A stretch of 64,000 bases of DNA, from NCBI GenBank assembly GCA_017463985.1, contig JAFUEH010000020.1:1-64000 (forward strand), written 5' to 3'. The notes under the pieces were generated by a model, which saw only the letters and a list, made by a program, of their open reading frames with translations, was not told the DNA's origin and did no database searches. Both the position numbers and the translations under genes were made by a program. The DNA comes from Eubacterium sp. (GTDB lineage: Bacteria > Bacillota > Clostridia > Oscillospirales > Acutalibacteraceae). Positions 3,823-51,557 of this stretch are shown here, piece after piece. How positions within the stretch are numbered: the first letter of the stretch is position 1; every line of letters starts with the position of its first letter.

Positions 3823-3839
3823 GGATATACTTGATAATG

Positions 3840-3879
3840 AAGACACTCGGAGGAGCACCCTACATAAATAGGGTGCTCC
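3840..3879 (+). repeat. Left terminal inverted repeat of the element
   Basis: It holds AAGACACTC, then a perfect 11-bp stem (GGAGCACCCTA at 3852-3862, TAGGGTGCTCC at 3869-3879) around a 6-base loop. It is the probable binding site of the serine recombinase. The hairpin could also stop transcription entering from the PadR operon. Confidence 0.8.
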
Positions 3880-3956
3880 AAATCTTTGTAATCAGCCGAT
3901 GTTTGATTGTAGGTATGGAAAATTACATATCAATTTAGCATACGGAGGATTATATA

Positions 3957-4334
3957 ATGAAAAAGCATATTACTGATGAAAAGAACGGAATTGATTATAC
4001 ACTTGTAAACGGAGTGTATTTGCCTAATCTGATTTCAACTGAAACGAATTATGAGATTGGTCATTGGGGACAAAGACATCTTGACTATATAATGAAGCAT
4101 CACAAGGTATTATATACCTCACTCAAAACGAGTTGTAAATTAAACTCATATTTACATGAGGTGGATATCCGTGCCGATGAAATGTATAACCGACTTGTAA
4201 AGCAGCTTGCCGAAAAGCAAGGTGTTACAGAGCAGTTGAAGGCTGATAATCAAATGCTATGGGTGCAGAAGATGACGAATATAGCAAATCAAGCAAGAGA
4301 GATTGTCTATAACGAAGTGATTTATGCGAGGTAA
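3957..4334 (+). CDS. tnpV: TnpV family transposon-encoded protein
   Basis: This 125-residue protein fits the TnpV family carried by Tn4451-type elements: an N-terminal YTLVNGVYLPNL strand region, a GHWGQRHLDYIMKHH helix, and a C-terminal amphipathic helix with QKMTNIANQAREIVYNE. The family's function is not known. ACGGAGGA at about 3943 sets the start. It is the first gene inside the left end and overlaps the next by a few bases, as is typical of these elements. Confidence 0.85.
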   Translation: MKKHITDEKNGIDYTLVNGVYLPNLISTETNYEIGHWGQRHLDYIMKHHKVLYTSLKTSCKLNSYLHEVDIRADEMYNRLVKQLAEKQGVTEQLKADNQMLWVQKMTNIANQAREIVYNEVIYAR

Positions 4335-4338
4335 GGTT

Positions 4339-4602
4339 ATGGATATTCTTGAAGAACTTTGGTATGGCAATATTACGCCGACAGAATACAGTCGCATTGA
4401 GAACAATGCAGAATACAAGGAGGCGCTTAATTTAGTCAATAAAAATCAAGAACGATTGAAAGCAACGCTAAATGATGAACAAAATGAGTTGTTAGAAAAA
4501 TTACTTACATCAAGCGAAGAATTTGCAAATCTTATTGAACTTGACTGCTTTAAGGTCGGTTTCAAACTCGGTGCAAAATTTACAGTAGAAGCATATACAT
4601 GA
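4339..4602 (+). CDS. DUF6809-like small protein
   Basis: This is an 87-residue helical protein beginning MDILEELWYGNITPTE, the pattern of a family (DUF6809) common on Clostridia mobile elements. The body is an acidic coiled helix pair ending in FKVGFKLGAKF. The start at 4339 is preferred over 4324 because AAGG lies just upstream and the family begins at this motif. Function is unknown. It follows tnpV directly and ends at a strong hairpin. Confidence 0.65.
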   Translation: MDILEELWYGNITPTEYSRIENNAEYKEALNLVNKNQERLKATLNDEQNELLEKLLTSSEEFANLIELDCFKVGFKLGAKFTVEAYT

Positions 4603-4603
4603 G

Positions 4604-4637
4604 ACGAGGCGAGGAGAAATCCTCGCCTCGTTACTTT
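4604..4637 (+). terminator. Hairpin terminator after the DUF6809 gene
   Basis: A perfect 12-bp stem ACGAGGCGAGGA / TCCTCGCCTCGT (4604-4615 and 4620-4631) with a GAAA loop starts two bases after the stop codon. The T-run behind it is short and interrupted. Confidence 0.7.
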
Positions 4638-4844
4638 ACCGTCTTGAACAGTAAAAATTGTCTTTTATCAAATAACAACACCTAAAATGATGAAGGATAT
4701 GTAAAACACATTTTGTTAAAATAGTTTTTGTTTTTCTCTGTTCTTGAGCAGTAAAAACTCTGCAAAAAACGGCTTGTTTTTCTTAAAACAGTTAAAGTAA
4801 AAAAAAATTAACATTATTGAATATTGCACATTATAAAAAAGAGA
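4638..4844. repeat. AT-rich gap with a 16-bp direct repeat 100 bp apart
   Basis: No gene is seen. TCTTGARCAGTAAAAA occurs at 4642-4657 and again at 4742-4757 with one difference, exactly 100 bp apart. A degraded third copy may lie near 4775. The role is unknown; binding sites for an element-encoded regulator are one option. Confidence 0.5.
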
Positions 4845-4873
4845 ATGACATTGATTTGAAAATATGATATAAT
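4845..4873 (+). promoter_or_regulatory. Promoter of the 7TM-PrsW pair
   Basis: ATGACA (4845-4850) is followed 17 bp later by a perfect TATAAT (4868-4873) that carries an upstream TG (extended -10). The gene start is 32 bp downstream. Confidence 0.7.
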
Positions 4874-4904
4874 TAGGGAAATGATTTAACTAGAGGTTTT
4901 AAAA

Positions 4905-5567
4905 TTGAAAACGGATTTAGCAATGAACCTGTTGATATTTATCTGTTCACTGTATGGAACTATCTACGGGTTAAGCAAATTTTTTAGAAAGAAAAAAGCG
5001 TTATATCTTAAGCTCGTTACCTGCGGCGTTATGAGTTTGATGTTTTCAAGGCTTTATCAGGTCATCTACCTTACTACGCAGGGAAATTTGAACAGCGGTT
5101 TTCATATCGGCTTGCTCGGAATAACGGGCAGCTTTATGTTCTTTTTCTCGGCTAACTTCGGGCAAATGGACGGCTTGGTTGATGATAAGACAAAAGCCTT
5201 CAGAAAAACGAGAATTATTTCGCTTATAGCGCCGCTGTCTGTACTTATCATATATCTTTTATTTTTTATGAAGGTGCATAACACAGAGCTGAGAATCGTA
5301 TGGGGCATTGTTACCTTCTTCATTATGCAGTGTGCATATTATAGTTTTAAGCATATTATCATATATGATGTCGATTTCGGTATAATAAAGTCATTGAGAA
5401 AATATAATGCGCTTGTACTCGCCTACGCTTTTCTAAGTATGCTTGAGGCTGTCGGCTTATATATAGATATTAAGCCGTTGTATGTTGCGTCTTGCGTAAG
5501 TATAGGAATTGTAGCAGTTACACTGCTTCCCGTACTGAAGGGAGGTGCCCAAAAGTGGACAATATAA
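4905..5567 (+). CDS. Seven-segment membrane protein paired with PrsW
   Basis: This 220-residue integral membrane protein has about seven hydrophobic segments and almost no soluble part, similar in outline to the 7TM sensor modules of Firmicute kinases but without an output domain. I do not recognise a named family. It starts with TTG behind AGAGG at 4892, and its last 13 bases overlap the PrsW gene, so the two are translationally coupled. A role as membrane partner or sensor for PrsW is inferred from that coupling only. Base composition is AT-rich like the rest of the element. Confidence 0.6.
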   Translation: MKTDLAMNLLIFICSLYGTIYGLSKFFRKKKALYLKLVTCGVMSLMFSRLYQVIYLTTQGNLNSGFHIGLLGITGSFMFFFSANFGQMDGLVDDKTKAFRKTRIISLIAPLSVLIIYLLFFMKVHNTELRIVWGIVTFFIMQCAYYSFKHIIIYDVDFGIIKSLRKYNALVLAYAFLSMLEAVGLYIDIKPLYVASCVSIGIVAVTLLPVLKGGAQKWTI

Positions 5568-6187
5568 CCTATGTTCTTTATATCTGCTTTTTGATACCGA
5601 TGGCGCTTTCGCTCTTTATTATGCAGAAAAAATCAAGGCTTACCGTTGCTTTTATTCTTATCGGCACAACTGTCTGCCTTTTGGCAAGCGAAGTAAATAA
5701 CCATATCTATCTTAACATAAACAGAGATATGCTGTATTTTACAACAACGGTTTCCCCCGTGACAGAAGAGCTGCTCAAGGCTTTGCCGATACTGCTTTAC
5801 GCACTCTTCATCTCAGACAACAGACAGAAGCTTGCGCAGTCAGCCTTTGCTGTCGGTCTCGGATTTGCGATAATGGAAAACGTAATAATGATAACGCAGA
5901 ATTTATACAGCATAGATATCAAATGGGCGATTATGCGGGGCTTTGGTGCAAGTCTTATGCACAGTATATGCACGGTTGCGGTAGGCATAGGCATTTCCTT
6001 TGTAAGAAAGAAGAAAAAGCTGTTTTACTGCGGCACGCTTTCTCTTTTAATGCTGGCGATAACCTATCACTCCATTTACAATACTCTGGTAATGTCGCCG
6101 CATAAGTATTACGGAATCATCCTGCCGATATGCACCTATATTCCGCTTTTGCTTTTCAGTTACAAACGAAAAACTCCGGAAAAATAA
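5555..6187 (+). CDS. PrsW family intramembrane metalloprotease
   Basis: The 210-residue multi-pass membrane protein has the PrsW signatures: TEELLKALPILL (the EExxK motif) at about residues 70-80, an E-N pair in GLGFAIMENVIM, and conserved His in ASLMHSICT and ITYHSIYNT. PrsW proteases of Bacillus and Clostridioides make the first cut in anti-sigma factors that control antimicrobial-peptide defence. The GTG start at 5555 is chosen because GGGAGGTG precedes it and the family begins with a membrane segment; the upstream reading frame has no support. No anti-sigma factor lies nearby, so the substrate may be a cargo protein or a host protein. Confidence 0.85.
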   Translation: MDNITYVLYICFLIPMALSLFIMQKKSRLTVAFILIGTTVCLLASEVNNHIYLNINRDMLYFTTTVSPVTEELLKALPILLYALFISDNRQKLAQSAFAVGLGFAIMENVIMITQNLYSIDIKWAIMRGFGASLMHSICTVAVGIGISFVRKKKKLFYCGTLSLLMLAITYHSIYNTLVMSPHKYYGIILPICTYIPLLLFSYKRKTPEK

Positions 6188-6189
6188 AT

Positions 6190-6226
6190 AAACCCCTATG
6201 GCAGTTCACATTCGCCATAGGGGTTT
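6190..6226. terminator. Bidirectional terminator between prsW and the amidase
   Basis: A perfect 13-bp stem AAACCCCTATGGC / GCCATAGGGGTTT (6190-6202, 6214-6226) has A-runs and T-runs on both sides. It can serve the two convergent transcripts that meet here. Confidence 0.85.
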
Positions 6227-6241
6227 GTATTATTTTAATTT

Positions 6242-7078
6242 TTATTCTACTCCGAGATTTTTATTTACCTGTGACGCTATATCGCCCATACGGCTGTAAA
6301 GATAATCGCCCGGGCAAGCTTTGTTTGCAAAATCACGGTGAACCGTCATATTAGCGCCGTCAAGATGCTTTATGCGGGTTACTGAATCATCGCTCCATAC
6401 AAGCTTTTCAATATTGTTTCTCTGGCAGATATCCGTAACAAGTTTAATGAGTGCTTTGTATGCTTCATCTGTAACCGCATAAGGGCTGTTGACCTCTGAA
6501 GCGACCTCGATAGTTACTGCACGGTTGTCATTGGCAGAGTTACTGCTTGCCCACGATCTGTCTTTTTCCTCAAGAATCATTAGTATTTTTCCGTCAGAGC
6601 CAATTGCATAATTAACGCTGGCTTCTGTCGCAGACTTACTATATAAGTTTGCAATGGCATATACCTGAGTTACTCCAGCAGAGCAGTGGATAGTTATGGT
6701 ATCTATCTTGTGATTTCTATGTGGAGTATTTGGGTCATTCGGGTTGTTTTTATTTGGAGAGATTTTATAGTCAGCAATGAGTTTGCTGTTGGAGAAAGTT
6801 ACCTTTTCTCCGTTAATAGTGATAACGGCGCCTGCTAATGAAGCATCGCCTGAATCGCTGCGCTCTGCGTCAAGATTCGTATCAACCTCAGGGTCATAAC
6901 CGTTAGTTAATTCTTCCAATGCTTCGGCAGGGATTTCCTCTGACGCAGCAACGTCTTCTGAGGTTTCCCCCGAAGTGTCCGTTTGAGCCTTGTTGCCCGA
7001 ACAGCCTGCAAGAGTGCCTGCGAGCAGGCAAACGCAAAGCATCGCGCTCATCAATCTTAATAATAAATTCTTTTTCAT
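6242..7078 (-). CDS. N-acetylmuramoyl-L-alanine amidase lipoprotein
   Basis: This 278-residue exported protein has a lipoprotein signal ending in LAGC (Cys26), so it is probably anchored to the membrane surface. After an acidic linker rich in Glu and Ser, an Amidase_2/PGRP domain covers residues 120-278. The zinc ligands are His in ITIHCSAG, His in TVHRDF and Cys in KACPGDY, and the family Tyr/Lys region lies between. Such enzymes cut the bond between muramic acid and L-alanine in peptidoglycan. The start at 7078 is preferred to 7120 because it has its own AAAGG site and begins the signal peptide; the upstream 14 codons overlap a degraded gene fragment. It is the last gene of the minus-strand cargo operon. 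Confidence 0.85.
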   Translation of the reverse strand: MKKNLLLRLMSAMLCVCLLAGTLAGCSGNKAQTDTSGETSEDVAASEEIPAEALEELTNGYDPEVDTNLDAERSDSGDASLAGAVITINGEKVTFSNSKLIADYKISPNKNNPNDPNTPHRNHKIDTITIHCSAGVTQVYAIANLYSKSATEASVNYAIGSDGKILMILEEKDRSWASSNSANDNRAVTIEVASEVNSPYAVTDEAYKALIKLVTDICQRNNIEKLVWSDDSVTRIKHLDGANMTVHRDFANKACPGDYLYSRMGDIASQVNKNLGVE

Positions 7079-7103
7079 AATTTCTTTCCTTTCTGTATTA
7101 AAT

Positions 7104-7234
7104 TTATGCGTTTTTCGCATTGTTTTTTCTCTTTTTAACTGCGGTCATTCCGAGTATTGCAACGACTACGCCCAAGATAAATCTGTCGCCGAGTAACAGT
7201 ACGGTAGATTCTTCACTGAAGCGTTCAGTTTTCC
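7104..7234 (-). pseudogene. Remnant C-terminus of a secreted anchored protein
   Basis: Read on the minus strand, these bases encode an open tail with FILGVVVAILGMTAVKKRKN followed by a stop. That nearly repeats the last 35 residues of the gene at 7889-8644 (FILGIAVAALGMTAVKKRKN). No start codon or body remains, and it sits between the double-HTH lipoprotein and the amidase. The DNA is also similar (the stretch near 7118-7175 against 7908-7965). It is best read as what is left of a tandem paralogue after a deletion. Confidence 0.8.
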
Positions 7235-7240
7235 ACAAAA

Positions 7241-7864
7241 CTAATTATAAAAACTGATTATATTAGAGACATCAGTTTTAAAGTAATTACACAAACGACT
7301 TACCATGGAGACTCTAAAGTCATGATCAGACATAATCCTAGTATATTCAGTTGCAGTAAATAATTTCTCAGAAGTAATCAAATAGTTTATATTATAATTA
7401 TGCTCATTCTTATGCTCACTAAGATAATGAAGTAATGGTTTAAATCTTATTTTGCCTGTGCTTTCATAATCCTTCTTTGCCTCGGTTTGAGTATCCCAGT
7501 CAATCTCGTGAGCAACTTCATGAACGCCTGATTCCTCATATTTCATGATATCGTCAACGCTACATCCCAAGTAGGAGCAAAGATTGCCTATGTTCGACAA
7601 TCTCACATTTCTATTATTAGCAAACATTTCCGCAATTGTTTCAGTTATAACGCCGTCTTCTATAATTTGCTCCATAGAAATACCATGAGCATCTAAATAT
7701 TGAAATAATGGAGCAAATGTAATATTTTCCAATCCATCGTAATCATTATTAGTGCCGTCTGCAAAAACTGCGCCTTCCAATGGTGCGTCTGACTTTGTGC
7801 TGCAGCCTCCGAAAGCCAAAAGTATAAGTATCACCGCAAGAATAAGTGAAATCGTTTTTTTCAT
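7241..7864 (-). CDS. Lipoprotein with two Cro/CI-like HTH repeats
   Basis: This 207-residue protein has a clear lipoprotein signal (hydrophobic core, then FGGC with Cys at about 21), so it should be exported and lipid-anchored. The mature part holds two repeats of about 65 residues. Repeat 1 (about 48-113) runs from ITFAPLFQYLDAHGIS to NLCSYLGCSVDDIMKY; repeat 2 (about 138-207) runs from IRFKPLLHYLSEH to RLCNYFKTDVSNIISF. Both match the helix pattern of the small Cro/CI (HTH_26-like) DNA-binding fold, including the closing LC-yL-C-v-dI motif. A DNA-binding-type fold outside the membrane is odd. It may have been recruited as a protein-protein module. It lies between two exported proteins in one operon. 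Confidence 0.7.
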   Translation of the reverse strand: MKKTISLILAVILILLAFGGCSTKSDAPLEGAVFADGTNNDYDGLENITFAPLFQYLDAHGISMEQIIEDGVITETIAEMFANNRNVRLSNIGNLCSYLGCSVDDIMKYEESGVHEVAHEIDWDTQTEAKKDYESTGKIRFKPLLHYLSEHKNEHNYNINYLITSEKLFTATEYTRIMSDHDFRVSMVSRLCNYFKTDVSNIISFYN

Positions 7865-7888
7865 AATAGTTTCCTTTCTGTCTTAAAG

Positions 7889-8644
7889 CTATGCATTTTC
7901 CGCTTCTTTGTTTTTTCTCTTTTTAACTGCGGTCATTCCGAGTGCTGCAACGGCAATTCCCAAGATAAATCCGCCGCCCGCAAAGAGTACCTTTGAACCG
8001 CCCGAGAAGGTCGAGGCGCTCACGGAAGCGGTACCGTTCAAATTCGGGAAACCGTCAAAGCTGCCATTTTCAATAAAGACATCTGACTTGACTTCTGCAA
8101 AAATACGAGTTCCGTCAGGACATTCCATTTCCCTGTATGATATTTCGACAGGTCTGTCAGAACTTCCGGAAAACGTATTTTTTATATCATCTTCATCCCA
8201 ATCATCGCCAAGCTGTATATACATCAAAACTGAATTTGCAAATTCGCTTTCCTCCGTTCCGTTGGGATTAACAACGCCATGCAGGAACAATCGCCGTGTG
8301 TAATTTTGAGCCTCCGGCGTATCATCAAGCAAATTAAAGTAATATTGATAGATATCAGCATCATTTTCAGCGTCCAGCCACATAACCCAGAAAAATGAGC
8401 CCGACTCAATAAGCCCTTGTGAATTATCAATGCCGTACCAAGCGGACGAACCATAAGATTCTTCCTTAAGCCACGTAATGCCGTCATCCTTTACTACTGC
8501 GCTCGTTCTGCCGTTGTCGGCAACGTAATAAGTAATGCCGTTTTGAGTAACAGGCGTAACATTTGCATAGGCTATGAGCGGCAAAGCGGAAAGCATAGAT
8601 AAAACTAAAATGATTGATAATATAAATGAAAATGATTTTTTCAT
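7889..8644 (-). CDS. Secreted protein with C-terminal membrane anchor
   Basis: The 251-residue protein has an N-terminal signal peptide (cut near AYA, residue 27), a soluble middle part rich in Asp, Tyr and Trp, and a C-terminal membrane segment FILGIAVAALGM followed by KKRKNKE. This layout suits a protein held on the outer face of the cell membrane; no LPXTG motif is present. I do not recognise a family for the ectodomain. It is the first gene of the minus-strand cargo operon, behind a candidate promoter and a TetR operator. A broken copy of its C-terminus lies downstream at 7104-7234, so this protein type was once duplicated. Confidence 0.6.
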   Translation of the reverse strand: MKKSFSFILSIILVLSMLSALPLIAYANVTPVTQNGITYYVADNGRTSAVVKDDGITWLKEESYGSSAWYGIDNSQGLIESGSFFWVMWLDAENDADIYQYYFNLLDDTPEAQNYTRRLFLHGVVNPNGTEESEFANSVLMYIQLGDDWDEDDIKNTFSGSSDRPVEISYREMECPDGTRIFAEVKSDVFIENGSFDGFPNLNGTASVSASTFSGGSKVLFAGGGFILGIAVAALGMTAVKKRKNKEAENA

Positions 8645-8686
8645 GTTATGTCCTTTCTGCCTTTGCTGTTGAAATTAATTTTTCTT

Positions 8687-8713
8687 TTGATTTCAAAGCG
8701 TTTATGTTATACT
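8687..8713 (+). promoter_or_regulatory. Candidate promoter of the TetR gene
   Basis: TTGATT (8687-8692) and an extended -10 TGtTATACT (TATACT 8708-8713) are spaced 15 bp, which is a little short. It would give a leader of about 130 bases that contains the palindrome at 8789-8810. Confidence 0.4.
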
Positions 8714-8741
8714 ATTATAAATACCTTTTTGGTTCAATAAC

Positions 8742-8771
8742 ATTTTACTATTTTAATAAAGTAAATGTCAA
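8742..8771 (-). promoter_or_regulatory. Promoter of the minus-strand cargo operon
   Basis: On the minus strand a perfect TTGACA (8766-8771) precedes TAAAAT (8742-8747) by 18 bp. It points to the secreted protein, lipoprotein and amidase genes. Its -35 box lies 18 bp from the palindrome at 8789-8810. Confidence 0.6.
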
Positions 8772-8788
8772 TATTCAATTTCAACCCG

Positions 8789-8810
8789 ATTTGTAGCCAA
8801 AGCTACAAAT
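8789..8810. promoter_or_regulatory. Perfect inverted repeat, candidate TetR operator
   Basis: ATTTGTAGC and GCTACAAAT form perfect 9-bp arms around CAAA, a 22-bp site typical in size for TetR family operators. It lies between the divergent cargo operon and the TetR gene, 41 bp before the latter's start codon, so one dimer could control both sides. Confidence 0.7.
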
Positions 8811-8851
8811 TCATCTTAATTTGTAAACGCAATCAGAAGTGGAGAAACAAA

Positions 8852-9427
8852 ATGGATAAAAAAATTGACAAAAGGGCACAAAAAACAAGAAAGGCTTTGC
8901 AAAGCGCACTTGCTGTAATGTTGGATAAAAAGGTGCTGCGAAAGATTACCGTGCAGGAGGTTGCCGACCTTGCGGATGTAAACCGTGTAACCTTCTATAA
9001 GCACTACAAGGATATATATGATTTATACGAGCAGATGGAAAAAGAGGTGCTCTCTGACCTCGGTATGCTAATACTTGATTACAAAGAAAAACCGAAAGCC
9101 GATTTCTGCTCTGCGCTGATTGATTATATTGAAAACAATCCCACCATTTTCAAAATGATATTCAGCCCATATAACACGGGCGAGCTCAGGGACAAGTTCT
9201 GCAAGATGGTGGAAGGATTATTCCGCCTTATGCAGACGGAAAAGAACAACACGCAGTTCAGCGACGTAAAGATTGACTATTACACCACCTATCAATCAAA
9301 GGCATTTGTTGCCTTGCTTGAAAAATGGGTGCAGGAGGATTTCACACAGTCAAGAGAATTCATAATAAAAACCGCCGCCGAATTTGACACGCATACAGAG
9401 GAGTTAATAGCCAAACTATACAACTAA
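8852..9427 (+). CDS. TetR/AcrR family transcriptional regulator
   Basis: This 191-residue regulator has an N-terminal TetR helix-turn-helix at residues 8-55: TRKALQSALAVML, then ITVQEVADLADVNRVTFYKHYKD. The C-terminal helical ligand domain resembles the TetR_C groups of Firmicutes. The start at 8852 has GTGGAGAAA just upstream; the longer frame from 8765 would read through the palindrome and lacks a ribosome site. It is divergent from the three-gene exported cargo operon and probably controls it and itself through the inverted repeat at 8789-8810. The signal it senses is unknown. Confidence 0.88.
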   Translation: MDKKIDKRAQKTRKALQSALAVMLDKKVLRKITVQEVADLADVNRVTFYKHYKDIYDLYEQMEKEVLSDLGMLILDYKEKPKADFCSALIDYIENNPTIFKMIFSPYNTGELRDKFCKMVEGLFRLMQTEKNNTQFSDVKIDYYTTYQSKAFVALLEKWVQEDFTQSREFIIKTAAEFDTHTEELIAKLYN

Positions 9428-9457
9428 TAATACATAATAACAACTAAACAAATCGTT

Positions 9458-9499
9458 TATGACCTTGTTAGGAAATCCCTGACAAGGTCATATTTTTTT
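9458..9499 (+). terminator. Terminator after the TetR gene
   Basis: TATGACCTTGT (9458-9468) pairs with ACAAGGTCATA (9482-9492), with further partial pairing inside the loop, and is followed by seven T. Confidence 0.85.
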
Positions 9500-9528
9500 G
9501 TCCCAAAGGGCTTGTATTTTTCGTTTTT

Positions 9529-10140
9529 CGTGGCTTCAAGTGAGGGGTATTTATTTCTGATAGGTGTAAACAAATTATGAATTTTAGTCCCAATATGGTT
9601 ATATTTTGGCTTTGAAATCTGCGTATAGTGAAGGGACTTTTTCAAAGTGAAAAATAAATTCTTTGTAAACAATTCAAAAAACACCCTCACAAAACGCCCT
9701 CGTTTTCTGCATATAGTGAGGGGTGTTTAGAAAAAATTTGGTGCAAGTCCTAAAAAAGTGGGCAATAGCATAGTGAGGGAATGAAAAAATTTTTCGCCCA
9801 AAATGAAAATTTGTCGCTAATAGCATAGTGGGAATATTTTTTCAAAAACCGCATAAAAAACTCTTCCTCGTGGCTTCAAGTAGAGAGGGTATTTCGGTAG
9901 GTGTAAATAAACTGTGAATTATGTTTCTGATATGGTTGCTTTTTGCCTTTGAAATCTCCAAATAGTGAAGGGTGTTACTCTTCATTACTCAAAAAATTTT
10001 TTTCCAAAAGCCTAATATTTTTGAATCTTCGTGGCTTCAAGTGGGGAGATGATTTTCTGCGTAACTCCCTAATATGTTTGCAAAAACTGAAAAATTATTT
10101 AGTCAAATCGAAAAAAAGTGGGCAATAGCATAGTGGGGGT
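9529..10140. repeat. Non-coding array of interleaved short repeats
   Basis: About 0.6 kb holds no supported gene but several repeated words. CGTGGCTTCAAGT occurs at 9529-9541, 9869-9881 and 10030-10042. AGTGGGCAATAGCATAGTG occurs at 9757-9775 and 10117-10135, with a partial copy at 9818-9830. (T/A)ATAGTGARGG occurs at 9624, 9712 and 9961. The core ATAGTG is common to six sites. The blocks around the first word are also alike over about 100 bp, including a TTTGAAATCT word before the ATAGTGAAGG copies, so this looks like a decayed tandem duplication. The position before the mobilisation genes suggests a replication, transfer or regulatory region. Confidence 0.7.
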
Positions 10141-10427
10141 GTTTTTCAAAAGAGAAACAAACCCACCCTGATATTCCCATATAACGAATAAACCCATACA
10201 TAGTTAGAGGTAATAAAAACTAAATGACCGCCCGAAAGGGATATGCTTGCCAAGAGGTTTGTGGCGAAAACGGAGCGAGCAATACGCAGCGAGTGAGGTG
10301 CAGGAACTGCTTTCGGATAGAACGGCAAATGGAAAAAACAAGTAAAAAAATAATCCGTTTCGACAATATATTTTTCGGCAAAGTGCGATAATAATCTGTC
10401 GGGAAATGGATGGAAAAGGAGTAATTT
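10141..10427. other. Non-coding lead-in to the mobilisation genes
   Basis: No gene is supported. The middle part (10220-10320) is richer in GC than its surroundings and holds repeated GCGAG words and short inverted repeats, which resembles transfer-origin leader regions of mobilizable elements. A Shine-Dalgarno AAGGAG at about 10416 marks the next gene. Confidence 0.35.
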
Positions 10428-10721
10428 ATGATAACAGGAATGAAGAAAAAGGAAAAGACTACAGAGATATTTTTTGATGAGGCTAACCCCGTAATTAACA
10501 TCAGAACATACAATACCGACCTCAAAAAACGGTTGACAAAGTTCTCTAACGAGTACCCTGACGAATGCAGGTTGGTGGATGATTCGGGTAACGGTATGCT
10601 TGAATTTGAGATTAATAAGGGTAGATTTTGTTTCCGTTTAACCTCACCTTACAGCAAAGAACGAAGGAGTCTTTTAGCTCATAATGCGTCTGTAAATAAT
10701 CATCTTCCGAAAAAAGAATAG
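10428..10721 (+). CDS. Small hypothetical protein of the mobilisation region
   Basis: This 97-residue protein has a conserved-looking body: TTEIFFDEANPVINIRTYNT, DLKKRL, then FCFRLTSPYSKERR at the end. Proteins of this look often sit just before relaxase genes in Clostridia elements, but I cannot name a function. The fold is probably a small alpha/beta domain. AAGGAG 8 bp upstream supports the start at 10428. Confidence 0.6.
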   Translation: MITGMKKKEKTTEIFFDEANPVINIRTYNTDLKKRLTKFSNEYPDECRLVDDSGNGMLEFEINKGRFCFRLTSPYSKERRSLLAHNASVNNHLPKKE

Positions 10722-10761
10722 GATGTCGTTGTAGGTTCGATGTTTCGTTGCCTCGCGAGAG

Positions 10762-10823
10762 CGCAATGCACTTTTGATGCGTAAGTGTCAAAAGTGCCAT
10801 TGCGTTACTTTTGGAAAAGTAAC
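10762..10823. other. Paired hairpins, candidate oriT
   Basis: The first hairpin pairs CGCAATGCACTTTTGA (10762-10777) with TCAAAAGTGCCATTGCG (10788-10804), with one bulged base. The second is a perfect 9-bp repeat GTTACTTTT / AAAAGTAAC (10804-10812, 10815-10823). They sit 64 bp before the relaxase start, where Mob/Pre relaxases usually nick. The nick site itself is not identified. Confidence 0.55.
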
Positions 10824-10886
10824 AAAACCGAGAAAATGCGAATTTTGAAAGACAGATGAAAATATGAAGAAAGGATTGATAAATAT

Positions 10887-12029
10887 ATGGAATATTCAAG
10901 TATCAGCATTGAGCTTGGCAAGGGTGTAATAAATCATAACAACAGAAAATTTATTGCCGAAAATGTTGACAGAGAAAAAACGAAAAACAATATTGAATAT
11001 AAAAATATTCCGATTGAGGAAGCGTATCATATTCTCTTTGATGACGCACTTCAAAGATACAATGATAAGCAAACAAGAAAGAGCAGAAGAATACCAAGCT
11101 ACTATGAGCATATTAAAAATAGCAAACAGGAAAATTTATTCTATGAAATTATTGTTCAGGTTGGCAACCGTGAAGATATGGGAGTCGGAACAGAAAATGA
11201 AGAATTAGCAAAAAAGATTTTGGATGAATATATGTATAACTTTGAGAAACGAAATCCATATCTGTTTGTATTCAATGCTCACTTACACATGGATGAGGCA
11301 ACGCCTCATCTGCACATCGACTTTATTCCATTTACAACCGAATGTGATCGTGGCTTGGACACGAGGGTGTCACTTAAACGAGCTCTCCTCAATGAAGGCT
11401 TTTACAGTTTAGGCAAAAGCGATACCGAAGCGATGGCTTGGATGCGAAATGAGAAGGAAGAATTAGCGGCGGTTATGAAACAGAATGAGGTCGAATGGGA
11501 AAACCAAGGTAATAATCGTGACCACCTTTCCGTTTTGGAGTTCAAAAAGGAACAACGCTCAAAAGAGGTGGAAGAATTAGAGGCACATGTGTCAACGCTC
11601 GAAAACAAATTCAAAAATCTGTCTATGGCTATTGAAACTGTTACTGCACCGAAAAACAACGAGGAGTTTGAAGAGGAGTTCGTTCTTCCTGAGCCTCAGC
11701 GTTTGGAAACTGCAAAAAGTTACAAAGGTCGTATTGATAAAATGTTTGGCAAACTGAAAGCACTTGTGAAATCTGTGTTGGTCAAATATTTTGAATTAGA
11801 AAATGACTATCATGAGCTTTACGAGCAAAAGCAAAGGCTGTCCTATCAAGTATATAAGCTTGATGAAAACAACAAAGAGTACCAAAATAAAAACAATGAT
11901 TTAAGAAAACAATTAAGAGATTACCGTCTGCTTCGCAAGGTGCTTGGCAGCAAAGAGGTTAACCATATACTTGAAGAAGCAAAGAGAGGTCATAGAAGGA
12001 GGAATCGTGAATGGGAAAACACAAGATAA
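10887..12029 (+). CDS. Mob/Pre family relaxase
   Basis: This 380-residue protein is a plasmid-mobilisation/recombination (Mob_Pre, MobV-like) relaxase. The metal-binding signature HLHMDEATPHLHIDF lies at about residues 133-148, and the N-terminus SISIELGKGVINHNNR fits the DNA-binding part. Residues 215-375 are mainly coiled coil (repeated Glu-Leu/Lys heptads). It nicks the transfer origin and pilots one strand during mobilisation by a helper conjugative system; no mating-pair genes are present, so the element is mobilizable, not self-transmissible. It overlaps the next gene by 19 bases. Confidence 0.88.
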   Translation: MEYSSISIELGKGVINHNNRKFIAENVDREKTKNNIEYKNIPIEEAYHILFDDALQRYNDKQTRKSRRIPSYYEHIKNSKQENLFYEIIVQVGNREDMGVGTENEELAKKILDEYMYNFEKRNPYLFVFNAHLHMDEATPHLHIDFIPFTTECDRGLDTRVSLKRALLNEGFYSLGKSDTEAMAWMRNEKEELAAVMKQNEVEWENQGNNRDHLSVLEFKKEQRSKEVEELEAHVSTLENKFKNLSMAIETVTAPKNNEEFEEEFVLPEPQRLETAKSYKGRIDKMFGKLKALVKSVLVKYFELENDYHELYEQKQRLSYQVYKLDENNKEYQNKNNDLRKQLRDYRLLRKVLGSKEVNHILEEAKRGHRRRNREWENTR

Positions 12030-12271
12030 AAATTCCGTTAACAAAGGAACAATATGAATTGTATTCAACGGTAAGGAAAGAATACACCGAACTGCTTGAC
12101 AATATGAGCGAAGAGGAACGCAAGCGTTGGTTTACAAAGTTGCTTTTCAGAAAACCGATCAACTTTGAAAAGGAAATTGACGGTACTGTTTACTGTGTTA
12201 CAACACATTTCAACAGTCAAGCAAAAACTTCTGTTGCAGACAGAATAGAACGATTAATCGGACAACAGTGA
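12011..12271 (+). CDS. TnpW-like small element protein
   Basis: This 86-residue protein ends with the pattern of the TnpW family: FEKEIDGTVYCVTTHFNSQA, then a helix with DRIERLI. The N-terminal half is a charged helix that may pair with the relaxase. GAAGGAGG at about 11995 sets the start inside the relaxase gene. The family accompanies Tn4451-type relaxase and recombinase genes; its function is unknown. Confidence 0.65.
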   Translation: MGKHKIKIPLTKEQYELYSTVRKEYTELLDNMSEEERKRWFTKLLFRKPINFEKEIDGTVYCVTTHFNSQAKTSVADRIERLIGQQ

Positions 12272-12332
12272 TAGCAAATAAAAATCACACTTTAAAGTGT
12301 TGAATTTACGGTTTGAATGTGTTAATATGTAG

Positions 12333-14045
<1,713 letters not shown>

Positions 14046-14101
14046 AGAAAAACAGCATAACCGTAGCGGTTATGCCATTAATCTTAATTTGAAAGACGCC
14101 C

Positions 14102-14145
14102 GTGGGGTACTCCCTATTTACGTAGGACACCCCGAGGAGTGTCTT
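14102..14145 (-). repeat. Right terminal inverted repeat of the element
   Basis: Read on the minus strand it gives AAGACACTC, a 10-bp gap, then CCTACGTAAATAGGG, the same order and spacing as the left end. Its hairpin is less perfect than the left one. Confidence 0.8.
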
Positions 14146-14170
14146 TATTTTATAAAATAATATAATTTTA

Positions 14171-31302: not shown

Positions 31303-33405
31303 GTGAAGACGATCAAGCGTATAACGGCGTTAATCCTGTCTGTCATGCTGCTTTTGAGCTGCTGCCTTTCGGTCGGCTTTCTTTCTTACGCAGAGGAGCT
31401 GCGCTATTTTGAACGCGGTGTGCTGACGGACGGCACGAACACGGCTTATTACATCATCGATAAGGATAATAAGGTGCTGTATATCACCGGCGACGGTAAT
31501 CATAACGCGCGCACACCGAATTATCCCAGCGCTGCAGAGGGTCCTTTCGCCGGCAGAACAGATGTTACGCGTATTGTGATTGAAGAGGACGTAGAAAAAA
31601 TCGGTGACTATGCGCTTTCCAATATGACGAAGGTGGATACGCTGGAAGTGCAGTCAAACCTGCTGAGCAGCAGTTCTTCGATGTCCTCCAAGGCGATGAT
31701 CGGCTGTACCGGTTTGCGCCATATCCAGGGCGACAACTCACTGCTGTCTACCGACGTCTTTTTAGAGGTCATCAAGGGTGCGGTGAATATCGCTTCCGGC
31801 AACTGGCTGAGCCTGGTGAAAAACGGTATCAGTATTATCAGCACCGGCGTAACCGGCGACAATACGCTTGATAACGATACGGTTCACTGTATGGTGGATG
31901 ACTATATCAATAACGGGAATAAAATCTTCTTAGATGATCTTGCGACAGCGCAGGAAGCGTATAACGAGCGTCTGGCTAATCCCTGTTACAGCAATAACGC
32001 CTTCCATCATAGTTATCAAGCGGCTGTTACAACGCAGCCGACCTGTACCGCTGCCGGTGAGACGACATATACCTGTCCTACCTGCGGCGATGTGTATACC
32101 GAGCCGGTGACGGCGCTTGGTCATGTCTACACGGCTACAACGCTTTACGAGCGTTCGTGCTTTGTGGAAGGTATTACCAAGTACAGCTGCACACAGTGCG
32201 GCGACGCGATGTACCAGGCGATTCCGGCCATCGGTCATCATACGTACGACAGCTATACTTACGATGCTGCGGCTGATGCGTATACTGAGATCTGCGCGGT
32301 CTGTGACGATCATAATACACAGTTCGATAACGATACGTCTGCCTTGATCTATGCTGTCGACCTTGCTGAGGCGCTGGACAGCAGCGATTATACAACGGAT
32401 TCTTATCAGACCTTATACAATGCCGTGGAGCGGTATCTGCCGCTGGAGGAAACGGATTATCTGCAGTATCCGCAGGTGAAGGTGGATGAAAAGGTCGCTG
32501 AAATCCTGACGAAGCTGGATGCACTGGTGCCGTATCTGAATCTGCGTCTGTCCTATCAGCCGGGCGGTATAGCCACAGTGATATATGAGGATGTGACAGC
32601 CGGCGCCGGCAAACAGAGCGTTACCTTCGGAACGGAAGTTACCCTGACGGCAACGCCTGCTGCGGGCTATACGTTCAACGGATGGTATGAAAAAACCACG
32701 CGCCGTATCCTGTCTGAGGATGAGGTCTATACCTTCTCCATGACCTCTAATACTGATATTCTGGCACGCTTTATTGCTAACGATGAGGCGACGCTGTATT
32801 TTACCTGCCTTGACGGACAGCTCAAAAGCTATGTTACCAAAACAACAGAGGAATGGCGCACCGTGACTTCGCTGGAAGCACTGCTGCCGGAGGTGCCGTA
32901 CAGCTATGGGCATACGGACGGTGCTTGGCGTTATAATGAGCCTGCCGTGCTGGCGACCTTGAGCAGCGGCGAGGACGTGACCGTTATGCCGACTTATACC
33001 GACGTGGCAATACCGACCTACGAAAAGCCGCAGTCGACTGACGGTGTGACGCCGGCACTGACGCTGTATTACGAATATGACGCTGCCTATAACGTCGGTA
33101 ATTTCATTATGATGGCGGATGTGCCGGAGGACTGTCCTTATGAGGAGATCGGCATTGCATTTTACTACAAAAACGCCGATACCTTTAACCCGACAGCGCT
33201 ACGCCTTCTGATGAACAATAAGATGGTCACCAGCCGGTTCGATACGCTTTATGAGGACGGCAAATATGTGGTGAACTTTAAGAAAATGAGCGCCGGTAAA
33301 AATTACGCCGCTAAGGGCTATGTCAGCTATTATGACGCTGACGGCAACCTGCAGGTTGTTTATACCGACCAGGTGAATATCGTTAATTTAGCGCAGGCAA
33401 ACTAA
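31303..33405 (+). CDS. Secreted modular protein with InlB-like repeat
   Basis: This 700-residue exported protein has a signal peptide (1-30). Residues 35-140 resemble the opening of BspA-type proteins (ITGDGNHNARTP, FAGRTDVTRIVIEEDVEKIG), but only about one leucine-rich unit is left. Two CxxC segments follow (TYTCPTCGDVY, YSCTQCGDAMY, about 240-310), then a FIVAR-like helical region (about 345-415), an InlB-type beta repeat (about 425-495, with GYTFNGWYEKTT), and a C-terminal domain ending FYYKNAD ... TDQVNI. The last three modules recur near the N-terminus of the protein at 47895-51518. No sortase motif is seen. GTG start behind AGAGGTGA. Confidence 0.75.
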   Translation: MKTIKRITALILSVMLLLSCCLSVGFLSYAEELRYFERGVLTDGTNTAYYIIDKDNKVLYITGDGNHNARTPNYPSAAEGPFAGRTDVTRIVIEEDVEKIGDYALSNMTKVDTLEVQSNLLSSSSSMSSKAMIGCTGLRHIQGDNSLLSTDVFLEVIKGAVNIASGNWLSLVKNGISIISTGVTGDNTLDNDTVHCMVDDYINNGNKIFLDDLATAQEAYNERLANPCYSNNAFHHSYQAAVTTQPTCTAAGETTYTCPTCGDVYTEPVTALGHVYTATTLYERSCFVEGITKYSCTQCGDAMYQAIPAIGHHTYDSYTYDAAADAYTEICAVCDDHNTQFDNDTSALIYAVDLAEALDSSDYTTDSYQTLYNAVERYLPLEETDYLQYPQVKVDEKVAEILTKLDALVPYLNLRLSYQPGGIATVIYEDVTAGAGKQSVTFGTEVTLTATPAAGYTFNGWYEKTTRRILSEDEVYTFSMTSNTDILARFIANDEATLYFTCLDGQLKSYVTKTTEEWRTVTSLEALLPEVPYSYGHTDGAWRYNEPAVLATLSSGEDVTVMPTYTDVAIPTYEKPQSTDGVTPALTLYYEYDAAYNVGNFIMMADVPEDCPYEEIGIAFYYKNADTFNPTALRLLMNNKMVTSRFDTLYEDGKYVVNFKKMSAGKNYAAKGYVSYYDADGNLQVVYTDQVNIVNLAQAN

Positions 33406-47894: not shown

Positions 47895-50800
47895 TTATAT
47901 GGCAAGGAAGCTGCGTCCGTTTGCGTCAGCATATTCCTTTGCGTTAGAGATCGGTGAAGCGTGAATCACAGCCTGCGCCGGAATGGTGGCGGCGTTGGCG
48001 CCGACTGTGCAGCTGATGTTGTAGATGTATATATCCGTCAGTCCTGTGCAGCCGGAGAAGGCGTTGTTTCCGATCGCCGTAACGGTTTGCGGCGCCGTGA
48101 TCTCCGTGAAGCCGGTACAACCGGCAAAGGCGTAGGTGCCGATACTGCGCACATTATTCAGGTCGATTGTTGTGAGCGAGGTGCAGTTATTGAAGGCACG
48201 GCTGCTGATCGTTGTAACCGTCGACGGCAGCTCAATGCTTAGCAGGGACGTGCAGTCAGCGAATACAGACGTGTCAATTTTGGATAGTCCCTCCGGCAGC
48301 TGTATGCCGGTGAGCGCGCTGCAGCCGGCGAAGGCGTTCCGTTCAATCGTATTGACAGTAGCCGGTAAAGCAATTTCGTTCAGCGCGCTGCAGCCGCTGA
48401 ATAGGCCGCGACTGACAGTCGTCAGTCGGCTCGGTAACGTCACCGCTGTCAGCGACGAACAGTTTTCAAAGACAAAGCTGCCGAGGTTTATCGTGCTTTC
48501 AGGCAGTGTTACCGAGGATAATGCCCGGCAGCCGCTGAAGGCGTAATCCTCTATGCTCGCCAGTCCGCTGCCGAACTGAACGGACGATAATGCGGTGCAG
48601 TTTGCAAAGGCGTAACTGCCGATAGCTGTCAGGCTGTCCGGTAGCGTTAATGTCGCAATCGGAGTGCCGGTAAAAGCATAGCTTTCGATCCTACTGATAC
48701 CATCCGGAAGAACGGTGCTGCAGCAACCGACCAGCAGCTTGTTTGCGGTGGTTTCTATCAGCGCCTGACAGTTATTGCGGCTGTCATATACGGCGTTGTC
48801 GCTGCTTACCGTAACGGTAGTTAAGCCGCTGCATCCTGAGAAGGCCTGATTGCCGATCGCACTGACAGAAGCCGGTATGTACAGCGCTGTGAGAGCGGCA
48901 CAGCCGTAAAAAGCCCGTGTGCCGACCGTTACAAGTCCGTCCGGCAGAGTTGCTGTTGTCAAGGCTGTACAGCCGTTAAAGGTATTGTTGCCGATCGCCG
49001 TCAGCGTAGATGGAAGCTGGACGGCGGTGAGTGCCGTACAGTTAGTGAATACATTATCCGTTAGTACGGTGACGGTGGCTGGAACTGTGATTTCCGTTAA
49101 GGCACTGCAGCCTATAAAGGCGGCACGATCTAGGGTTTGCAGCTGGCTCGGCAATGCCGTCACCAGACTGGTGCAGTTAGAGAATGCGTATTCACCGATG
49201 GAGCGCAGGCTTTCCGGAAGCGTGAGTGTTTCGAGCGCTGTGCAGCCGGAGAACGAATTCGCACTGATGGCTGTGAGACTGCTTGGGAGTGTAACCGTAG
49301 CCAGCGAGCTGCAGTCCTTAAACGCTTGACTGCCGATCGTGGTCAGGCTAGTCGGCAGACTGACGTCAGTCAGTGCCGTGCAGCCGGAGAAAAACAGGCT
49401 TTCCACGCCGCGAACTCCGCTCTCCAGCGTAGCCGACTGCAAGGCAGTGCAGCCGGAGAATACGCCGCTGCCAAGACTGCGGATACCGCTTTGTACCGTA
49501 ACAGTTGACAGAGCGCCGCAGCCGCTGAAGGCATAGTTGCCGACGCTTTGCAGCGTTCCCGGCAGGGTGACGGCTGTCAAGCTGTTGCATTTGGAATAGG
49601 CATAAGCGCCGATCGTTTGCAGGCTTTCCGGCAGCTTTAAGGCGGTGAAACCGCAGCCGTAAAACGCGTAATAGCCGATTGAAGTAATGCTTTCCGGCAG
49701 CGGTGCGTCCGTCAGCGCTGTACAGCCGTAAAAGGCACGGTTGCCGACGGTCGTTACTGTTTTGCTGAAGGTGACCGCGCGCAGCCCTGTACAGCCGTAA
49801 AAAGCACATTCACCGACAGAAGTAACGCCGCTTTCGATCACGAGCGCCTCTAAGCCGGTCAGCTGATAAAACGGCGAATCCGTATTGACGGAATAGTCTG
49901 TCATTGGACCGCTGCCGCTCAGCGTCAATGTGTGCGTGCGGTGATCCAGCTGATAGGTGACGTCCTCGCCGCAGCTGCCGGTAGCAATATAATAAGTCTG
50001 CATTTCAGTAATGCCGCAGTTGGTACATTCGGCTTCGCATTCTCCGATCGACGTTAAGGTCGCTTCCTTTGTGACAGTTTTTACCGTGAATTGGTGACCG
50101 GTAGCCAGCAGCTCGGGATGCGTTGCCTCGCCGGTTGACGGATCAATTGACGGACGCGTGACGACGGTATCGCCGCAGCGGCTGCAGGTAGCGGTAATTC
50201 TTCCGTCCTCTGTGCAGGTGGGTTGTGTTACGACGGTCGTATAATCATGACCGGTCGCCGGAAGCTCCGTTGCCGACTCAACCACCTGGCCGCAAATAAA
50301 GCAAGCCGTGCCGCCGGTGCTGCCTGGCGCCGTGCAGGTCGGCGGAACGGTTTCGCCGGTGCGGAAATCGTGCACATCCTCTGTTTGGATGATATTTACT
50401 TGATTGGAGTAGACTGTTTTCAGCTCACCGTTTTCTATATAAGTGGCATAGCCTCTGACAGCCCAGTTGTATTTGGCCGTCAATTTTCTCATGTTGGTGA
50501 TATAAATATCTTCGTGCAGCAGTTCATACTGCGATACGAGCATTTTATTATTGATGTTGACATAAAAATCCGTCGGGTCAAACTGCTGGGCGTTTTTGTA
50601 ATAGAACAGCATCCCGATTGACTCCGGCACCACGCCGACCGGCCGTGCACTGTTCATAATGAACGAGCCGACGGCTGCCTCCTCATCATAGCGATAGTGT
50701 AGCTCCAGTCGGATCGTATCCGCTGCCGGTGCTGTGATATCCGGCAAATCCGATGCGGTTTCATCATAGACAGGATAGGCTACGGCAAACGCTCCTGCGG

Positions 50801-51518
50801 TGAGGTCGTCTGCCGTCAAACCGTTGTAGTCCCAACGGCCGTTAGTATAGCCGTAGCGGTAGGGGACTGCCGGCTCCAGCGATGTAAAGCTGTCGAGCGC
50901 GGCCCATTCCTCCGGCGTTTTGTCATAAAACGCTAAGATGCATCCGCCCTCTGTGGTGTACAGCAGCGTTGCCGCGTCTTCGCGGATATAGAGCGCCTCC
51001 AGCGAGGTGTTGACGGATAACGAAAAGACGTAAGCATTAACCTCACTCAATAGCCTTTTGGAAACAGTTTCGAGCCAGCCGGCAAAAATATACCCATCGA
51101 CGTTCGGCGCTGTCACCGCAACTGTCGTACCGTAAGTCAGCGTGCGCTGATTCTCATAAGAACTAACACCGTGCACGGTGATCGGAAGCGATACCCCGTC
51201 GATGTTGGCGCTTACCGCTAACGAAAGATAGGGCGTCAGCCCGTTGAGCGCTTCCAGCAAACGGAAGGCTGCGCTGTCGATCGCCTCTTGATCGTCCAGA
51301 CTGTCGGCCGACGGTGCGTACGCATCGTACAGCGCTTGCAGCACGGCGTAGGAGTCTGGCGTGTAATCCGTTTCTTCCATGGAAGCGGCAGCCTGCAGCA
51401 GGTGCAGCAGCACGGTGTTATCCGTTTCGCTTTCGCCAAAGGCAGTGACGCTGACGCCAAACAAAGCCGATAACAGCATTATCAGCGCCAATAGGGGAGC
51501 AACTGCTTTTTTACTCAT
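47895..51518 (-). CDS. BspA-like leucine-rich-repeat surface protein
   Basis: This 1207-residue exported protein starts with a signal peptide (to about residue 28, AFG). A FIVAR-like helical region (about 35-95), an InlB-like beta repeat (about 105-185) and a domain ending FYYKNAQ ... SNQVNI (about 190-370) follow. Then come CxxC segments (ACFICGQ, TCSRCGD, ECTNCGI, about 395-500), a VTYQLD ... LSGSGPM lead-in, and about 28 LRR_5 units of 23 residues (about 540-1195) of the form AFSGCTALTTVTLPxxLTxI. Such proteins bind host or bacterial surfaces. No sortase or cell-wall repeat is seen, so anchoring is unclear. AGGTGA supports the start at 51518. Confidence 0.88.
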   Translation of the reverse strand: MSKKAVAPLLALIMLLSALFGVSVTAFGESETDNTVLLHLLQAAASMEETDYTPDSYAVLQALYDAYAPSADSLDDQEAIDSAAFRLLEALNGLTPYLSLAVSANIDGVSLPITVHGVSSYENQRTLTYGTTVAVTAPNVDGYIFAGWLETVSKRLLSEVNAYVFSLSVNTSLEALYIREDAATLLYTTEGGCILAFYDKTPEEWAALDSFTSLEPAVPYRYGYTNGRWDYNGLTADDLTAGAFAVAYPVYDETASDLPDITAPAADTIRLELHYRYDEEAAVGSFIMNSARPVGVVPESIGMLFYYKNAQQFDPTDFYVNINNKMLVSQYELLHEDIYITNMRKLTAKYNWAVRGYATYIENGELKTVYSNQVNIIQTEDVHDFRTGETVPPTCTAPGSTGGTACFICGQVVESATELPATGHDYTTVVTQPTCTEDGRITATCSRCGDTVVTRPSIDPSTGEATHPELLATGHQFTVKTVTKEATLTSIGECEAECTNCGITEMQTYYIATGSCGEDVTYQLDHRTHTLTLSGSGPMTDYSVNTDSPFYQLTGLEALVIESGVTSVGECAFYGCTGLRAVTFSKTVTTVGNRAFYGCTALTDAPLPESITSIGYYAFYGCGFTALKLPESLQTIGAYAYSKCNSLTAVTLPGTLQSVGNYAFSGCGALSTVTVQSGIRSLGSGVFSGCTALQSATLESGVRGVESLFFSGCTALTDVSLPTSLTTIGSQAFKDCSSLATVTLPSSLTAISANSFSGCTALETLTLPESLRSIGEYAFSNCTSLVTALPSQLQTLDRAAFIGCSALTEITVPATVTVLTDNVFTNCTALTAVQLPSTLTAIGNNTFNGCTALTTATLPDGLVTVGTRAFYGCAALTALYIPASVSAIGNQAFSGCSGLTTVTVSSDNAVYDSRNNCQALIETTANKLLVGCCSTVLPDGISRIESYAFTGTPIATLTLPDSLTAIGSYAFANCTALSSVQFGSGLASIEDYAFSGCRALSSVTLPESTINLGSFVFENCSSLTAVTLPSRLTTVSRGLFSGCSALNEIALPATVNTIERNAFAGCSALTGIQLPEGLSKIDTSVFADCTSLLSIELPSTVTTISSRAFNNCTSLTTIDLNNVRSIGTYAFAGCTGFTEITAPQTVTAIGNNAFSGCTGLTDIYIYNISCTVGANAATIPAQAVIHASPISNAKEYADANGRSFLAI

Positions 51519-51557
51519 AGCGATCACCTGCATTCCTTCTTAAACTTCACCAAAATC

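Follow-up and report, generated by a model that had tools for sequence, protein, structure and literature searches.

We describe an apparently chimeric lipoprotein gene (positions 7241–7864, minus strand) in a 64,000-nucleotide window of Eubacterium sp. DNA, the whole stretch analysed here, in which a lipoprotein leader runs in frame into two repeats related to small Cro/CI-like helix-turn-helix (HTH) domains. The gene combines a complete open reading frame (ORF), a lipobox and two homologous repeats with a partial duplication of the gene next to it, a break in base composition and a reversal of charge. Our leading explanation, at a probability of about 0.45, is that a one-off fusion on a Tn4451-like mobile element gave rise to an exported HTH fold that would no longer bind DNA and may serve as a protein-binding module at the cell surface.

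The ORF is complete from ATG through stop, encodes 207 amino acids (aa) and is preceded by a ribosome-binding-like stretch, AGAAAGGAAA. Its product begins with MKKTISLILAVILILLAFGGC and comprises a signal and lipobox (aa 1–21), a linker, HTH_26 repeat 1, a second linker and a degenerate repeat 2. The leader part (7730–7864, minus strand), which includes the signal peptide, the lipobox and the linker to about aa 45, carries the features of bacterial lipoproteins: a Lys-rich n-region (MKK...), an h-region and a lipobox with its Cys. The 13-residue hydropathy maximum is 3.38, and the leader end, VILILLAFGGC, fits the PROSITE-type lipobox pattern, with the Cys at position 21 (AFGGC). The original prediction, made from the DNA letters, of an ORF with an FGGC lipoprotein signal is thus borne out. 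All residues after the lipobox Cys of a lipoprotein leader, here C21, lie outside the cell. Because this topology of lipoprotein signals is established, the product would be exported and lipid-anchored and both repeats are predicted to sit on the outer face of the membrane, which supports the location that had been proposed for them.

Repeat 1 (aa 45–112; 7529–7732, minus strand) matches the Pfam family HTH_26 (PF13443) over aa 56–111 with 31.8 bits against a cut-off of 22 (E = 1.7e-7). A profile built from 16 HTH relatives aligns with it at E = 6e-15 and with 3tyr, a solved transcriptional regulator, at E = 4e-18. The hydrophobic pattern of the HTH_26 domain is kept, as are both cysteines that are invariant across 14 aligned relatives and the DI motif. 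Repeat 2 (about aa 135–207; 7241–7462, minus strand) has diverged, with 4- and 1-residue insertions relative to repeat 1 and loss of the second conserved Cys. On its own it has no Pfam match at E ≤ 10, in a search whose HMMER filters discard many weak matches, and it is weakly collinear with the 16-relative profile (E = 0.0017, probability 16%). As a query it recovers repeat 1 (E = 0.0024), and the alignment of the two scores 77, far above shuffled sequences (mean 22.9, s.d. 4.0, maximum 43; n = 2,000), a similarity that chance does not explain, which makes the repeats homologous. The claim of two Cro/CI-like repeats therefore stands for the first and for the kinship of the pair, but the second is degenerate; its HTH nature is suggested by its likeness to repeat 1 and the weak profile match, and the Cro/CI-type fold of the repeats is putative. 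None of 5,000 base shuffles of the 489-nucleotide (nt) repeat region was free of stops.

We searched with the whole protein against overlapping genome sets that include its own genome (148 relatives and 398 family, 394 order and 291 class members), and the only full-length match across all four was the gene itself. No homologue with a signal plus an HTH domain appeared in these sets or in plasmids, phages, viral contigs or GTDB contigs, and the idea that the gene represents a system found no footing in the genome sets searched. Matches at E ≤ 0.001 occur in 33 of the 148 relatives' genomes, own genome included, and the partial matches are of two kinds: the leader to other lipoproteins, and repeat 1 to HTH_26 proteins. 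Lipoproteins of related genomes share a leader with a lipobox like ours at 26–53% identity, several alignments extending to positions 59–80; Pfam scans of six of these lipoproteins found an HTH family in none. A single match in the 148-genome set covers both leader and repeat-1 positions (G048:C36; aa 1–141, 28% identity, E = 9.5e-4). We rejected this 156-aa lipoprotein as a signal-plus-HTH homologue, as Pfam gives it no HTH family; its score against repeat 1 is 41, near the top of a shuffle range made for another pair. The widest other match, among the 394 order members (G703; aa 40–154), was also set aside: it is a standalone 67-aa HTH gene whose upstream matching frame contains a stop, and the remainder of the alignment crosses stops. 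Plasmids and viral contigs gave no match to the lipoprotein, two phage records match over about 62 residues, and 84,980 species genomes, in a scan that detects close relatives only, gave one locus that matches the leader alone.

Homologues lacking the signal peptide, named beforehand as evidence against the proposal, do occur for repeat 1: a lipobox within the first 60 aa of the longest frame is found in 0 of 33 repeat-1 relatives, defined as distinct proteins from the collected loci that score at least 76 against repeat 1. These relatives are mostly short standalone genes with no recognisable lipoprotein signal, and the domain starts within the first 15 aa in 20 of them and later in 13. Most of the later-starting ones have longer frames, some with hydrophobic stretches of up to 2.93 (L155), which in our judgement are open DNA upstream of the domain start; in an HTH membrane protein (L086) it is merely the aligned part that starts slightly later. 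The closest counterparts are standalone HTH_26 (PF13443) proteins from the same order, about 65 aa long and of the MIxYxPLWxTLKxKG type. They align with the whole of repeat 1, including both Cys and the DI motif, but show no lipobox among the 33 above, and the 16 that were profiled carry a net positive charge and a basic stretch at the recognition position. We also considered 42 further HTH_26 proteins, 22 from the own genome and 20 with long frames among the matches listed in a 60-genome survey. None of the 42 has a leader hydropathy above 2.36, against 3.38 here. Two of them, L116 (aa 49) and L131 (aa 42), carry the lipobox pattern, but their leader hydropathy does not exceed 1.45 and the domain follows 50–104 aa later; with no hydrophobic leader, these are taken as chance occurrences. 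By title or abstract opening, no paper on exported HTH lipoproteins was found among the matches listed in a literature search that had subscription papers mostly outside it. The signal-plus-HTH architecture joins two known parts in a way that is new but confined to one genome in the sets searched, and it is no new kind of system.

Charge sets the repeats apart from their relatives. Repeat 1 has a net charge of −7. All 16 close relatives lie between +1 and +4, and 42 further HTH_26 domains between −6 and +6. The recognition stretch is −1 in both repeats, compared with +1 to +5 in the 16 relatives; the basic recognition helix typical of close relatives, an indirect sign of DNA binding, is absent from both. 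The net charge of the mature protein is −15. Counting against a loss of DNA binding are repeat 2, whose overall charge of 0 to +2, depending on the span, is not acidic, and other HTH_26 domains of the own genome, which reach −6. Weighing these values, we consider that the repeats probably no longer bind DNA. The earlier suggestion of extracellular DNA binding is disfavoured accordingly on charge, since repeat 1 stands at −7 and each recognition stretch has a net negative charge. A receptor or scavenger that is exported to take up DNA outside the cell would fit a leader that implies an outside location and a repeat 1 that belongs to HTH_26, and is nonetheless quite improbable given the charges of the mature protein, of repeat 1 and of the recognition stretches.

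The non-positive recognition stretches bear equally on a cytoplasmic tandem-HTH regulator, produced from an internal start or after failed export. Codon 45 is a TTG, just ahead of the domain at the point where many standalone relatives start, but by eye no ribosome-binding stretch precedes it, and the strong leader and lipobox point to export. We regard such a regulator as unlikely, if slightly less so than the DNA receptor.

The gene lies within a mobile element of approximate extent 3838–14155, delimited by candidate imperfect inverted ends found by eye. The element encodes TnpV (3957–4334, plus strand; PF14198, 136 bits), a Mob_Pre-type relaxase (10887–12029, plus strand) and a large serine recombinase (12333–14045, plus strand), which at the Pfam level are the families of Tn4451-like mobilizable elements. 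Tn6104 and Tn4451 carry a TnpV homologue, a mobilisation gene and a TnpX-related serine recombinase together, according to the accessible part of their description (PMC3158075); the present element shares these three with that type at the level of gene families, and differs from the cargo described there (PMC3158075). In the relative loci searched, no empty site of the element was found, and in 11 of 11 of them the window's left neighbour gene did not lie beside tepA.

Within the cargo, three minus-strand genes lie in a row: gene A (7889–8644), encoding a secreted protein of 251 aa with, by eye, a C-terminal transmembrane (TM) anchor and a KKRK tail; the HTH lipoprotein gene; and a gene for a lipoprotein with an N-acetylmuramoyl-L-alanine amidase domain (6242–7078, the start at 7078 being chosen although the listed ORF starts at 7120). 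The row probably shares one transcript. A promoter scan found 7 candidates compared with 8.3 expected from shuffles, no better than shuffles. Divergent from gene A is a gene for a TetR-type regulator (8852–9427, plus strand), its start placed by likeness to relatives (the listed ORF starts at 8765), and a PrsW-like intramembrane protease is encoded at 5492–6187 (plus strand), overlapping the 3′ end of a membrane-protein gene (4905–5567).

Parts of gene A appear a second time at the lipoprotein gene. Directly behind the lipoprotein stop lies a copy of the gene A end and spacer, 83.7% identical over 123 columns; this second copy (7103–7226, minus strand) is a remnant of the C-terminal membrane anchor, in a frame that differs from that of the lipoprotein gene. 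The two genes have similar start regions (83% over 23 nt), and the counterparts of gene A's start, spacer and 3′ end lie at near-equal distances of 780, 785 and 788 nt. In G+C content the leader (42.2%) is close to gene A (42.7%) and the amidase gene (43.8%), whereas the repeat region stands at 32.5%. A fusion origin is supported by this G+C break, by the recurring start, spacer and end of gene A, and by the anchor remnant behind the stop; the simplest reading is probably that a copy of gene A had its interior replaced by the HTH stretch. As an observation in its own right, the 7103–7226 duplicate hints at tandem duplication or gene conversion within the cargo.

No donor of the HTH stretch turned up in the sets searched, which counts against the fusion account. 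Gene A, the amidase gene and the TetR gene had no match in viral contigs. Close relatives of gene A occur in two genomes of the genus, at 73% (G051) and 77% (G048); the former is followed by another gene, and behind the latter there is no HTH gene in the 411 nt that remain before the contig end.

The proposed sequence of events would begin with a tandem copy of gene A arising on the mobilizable element, after which an AT-rich stretch coding for tandem HTH_26 domains, inserted inside or beside the copy, would have replaced its interior and joined in frame behind the lipoprotein leader. The fused product would then be exported and held by its lipid anchor at the outside of the membrane, with repeat 1 keeping its cysteines and hydrophobic pattern and having presumably lost the positive DNA-contact face. 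If functional, it would be produced along with the TM-anchored surface protein and the amidase lipoprotein, and its role would be that of a small helical module that binds protein, in place of a regulator that binds DNA.

The same fusion could be a functionless by-product of recombination, an HTH stretch that landed in a surface-protein gene copy and is merely exported or degraded. The absence of any full-length match other than the gene itself in the sets searched, the truncated anchor remnant behind the gene and the degeneracy of repeat 2 all fit this account, and the first of these, leaving no homologue there to show that selection keeps the fusion, counts against a functional module. Against a by-product stand a frame open over 207 codons behind a ribosome-binding-like stretch and the retention in repeat 1 of the relatives' two cysteines and DI motif. 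We consider the by-product a substantial possibility, less probable than the surface module; both are favoured over a cytoplasmic regulator, DNA capture and release by PrsW.

Two described proteins provide precedents for HTH folds that bind proteins. In the accessible part of its source, QseM is an HTH-variant antiactivator with a negative surface that has lost DNA binding and binds the activator FseA (PMC10359603). It resembles the HTH lipoprotein in its negatively charged variant of the HTH and is tied to a conjugative element; its HTH is of the DUF2285 type, unlike the HTH_26 type here (PMC10359603). RodZ is a membrane protein whose HTH motif binds a protein, and the available portion of the report places that motif in the cytoplasmic part (PMC3599482), in contrast to the outside location predicted here. 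It is on the charge data together with the QseM and RodZ precedents that a surface protein-binding module is favoured, and the exported repeats may thus bind protein. That a Cro/CI-type HTH domain was captured by a lipoprotein signal on a mobile element and charge-reversed into an extracellular protein-binding module on the membrane's outer face is, as a complete account, doubtful.

If the product is exported and folded, the gene catches a regulator domain in the course of recruitment to the cell surface, brought there as an element's surface-protein genes recombine, and a protein-binding module would mean that a Cro/CI domain functions at the outside of a bacterial membrane. If it is not exported or folded, the gene shows how such elements generate possibly short-lived fusion genes. 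Neither reading makes it a new regulatory system; it is a curious gene fusion.

It had further been proposed that proteolysis by the element's PrsW protease releases the domains inward. The PrsW-like gene lies on the element about 1.1 kb from the end of the lipoprotein gene, but the leader places the domains outside. A lipoprotein cut by signal peptidase II retains no transmembrane segment, and the processed product here would have no TM span. Moreover, an 8.1-kb contig of a related genome (G051:C13) carries TetR, membrane-protein, PrsW-like (by eye) and TM-anchored surface-protein genes together, and no HTH lipoprotein gene was seen on it. Because of this arrangement, PrsW seems tied to the surface-protein genes and not to the HTH lipoprotein gene, and a membrane-held regulator freed into the cell by PrsW is very improbable.

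The cargo of the element seems to be a surface-protein module of chromosomal origin. Four genomes of the genus (G063, G028, G051 and G001; among L144–L149) hold five DNA matches of 74–81% to the TetR gene, near large signal-peptide proteins, several of which end in a TM anchor; a further match that is shorter (G033, 73%) is without such a neighbour. The C-terminal anchor of gene A is common to proteins from frames of 744–835 aa in other genomes of the genus, at 36–60% identity over about 45 residues (L046–L048, L051–L053, L055, L057, L058, L060, L061 and L063–L065), some of them in tandem arrays. Elsewhere in the window, 31303–33405 (plus strand) and 47895–51533 (minus strand) encode large predicted secreted proteins with N-terminal leaders and, by eye, a common block around YYKNAxxFxPT...NNKM; these are possibly paralogous host surface proteins.
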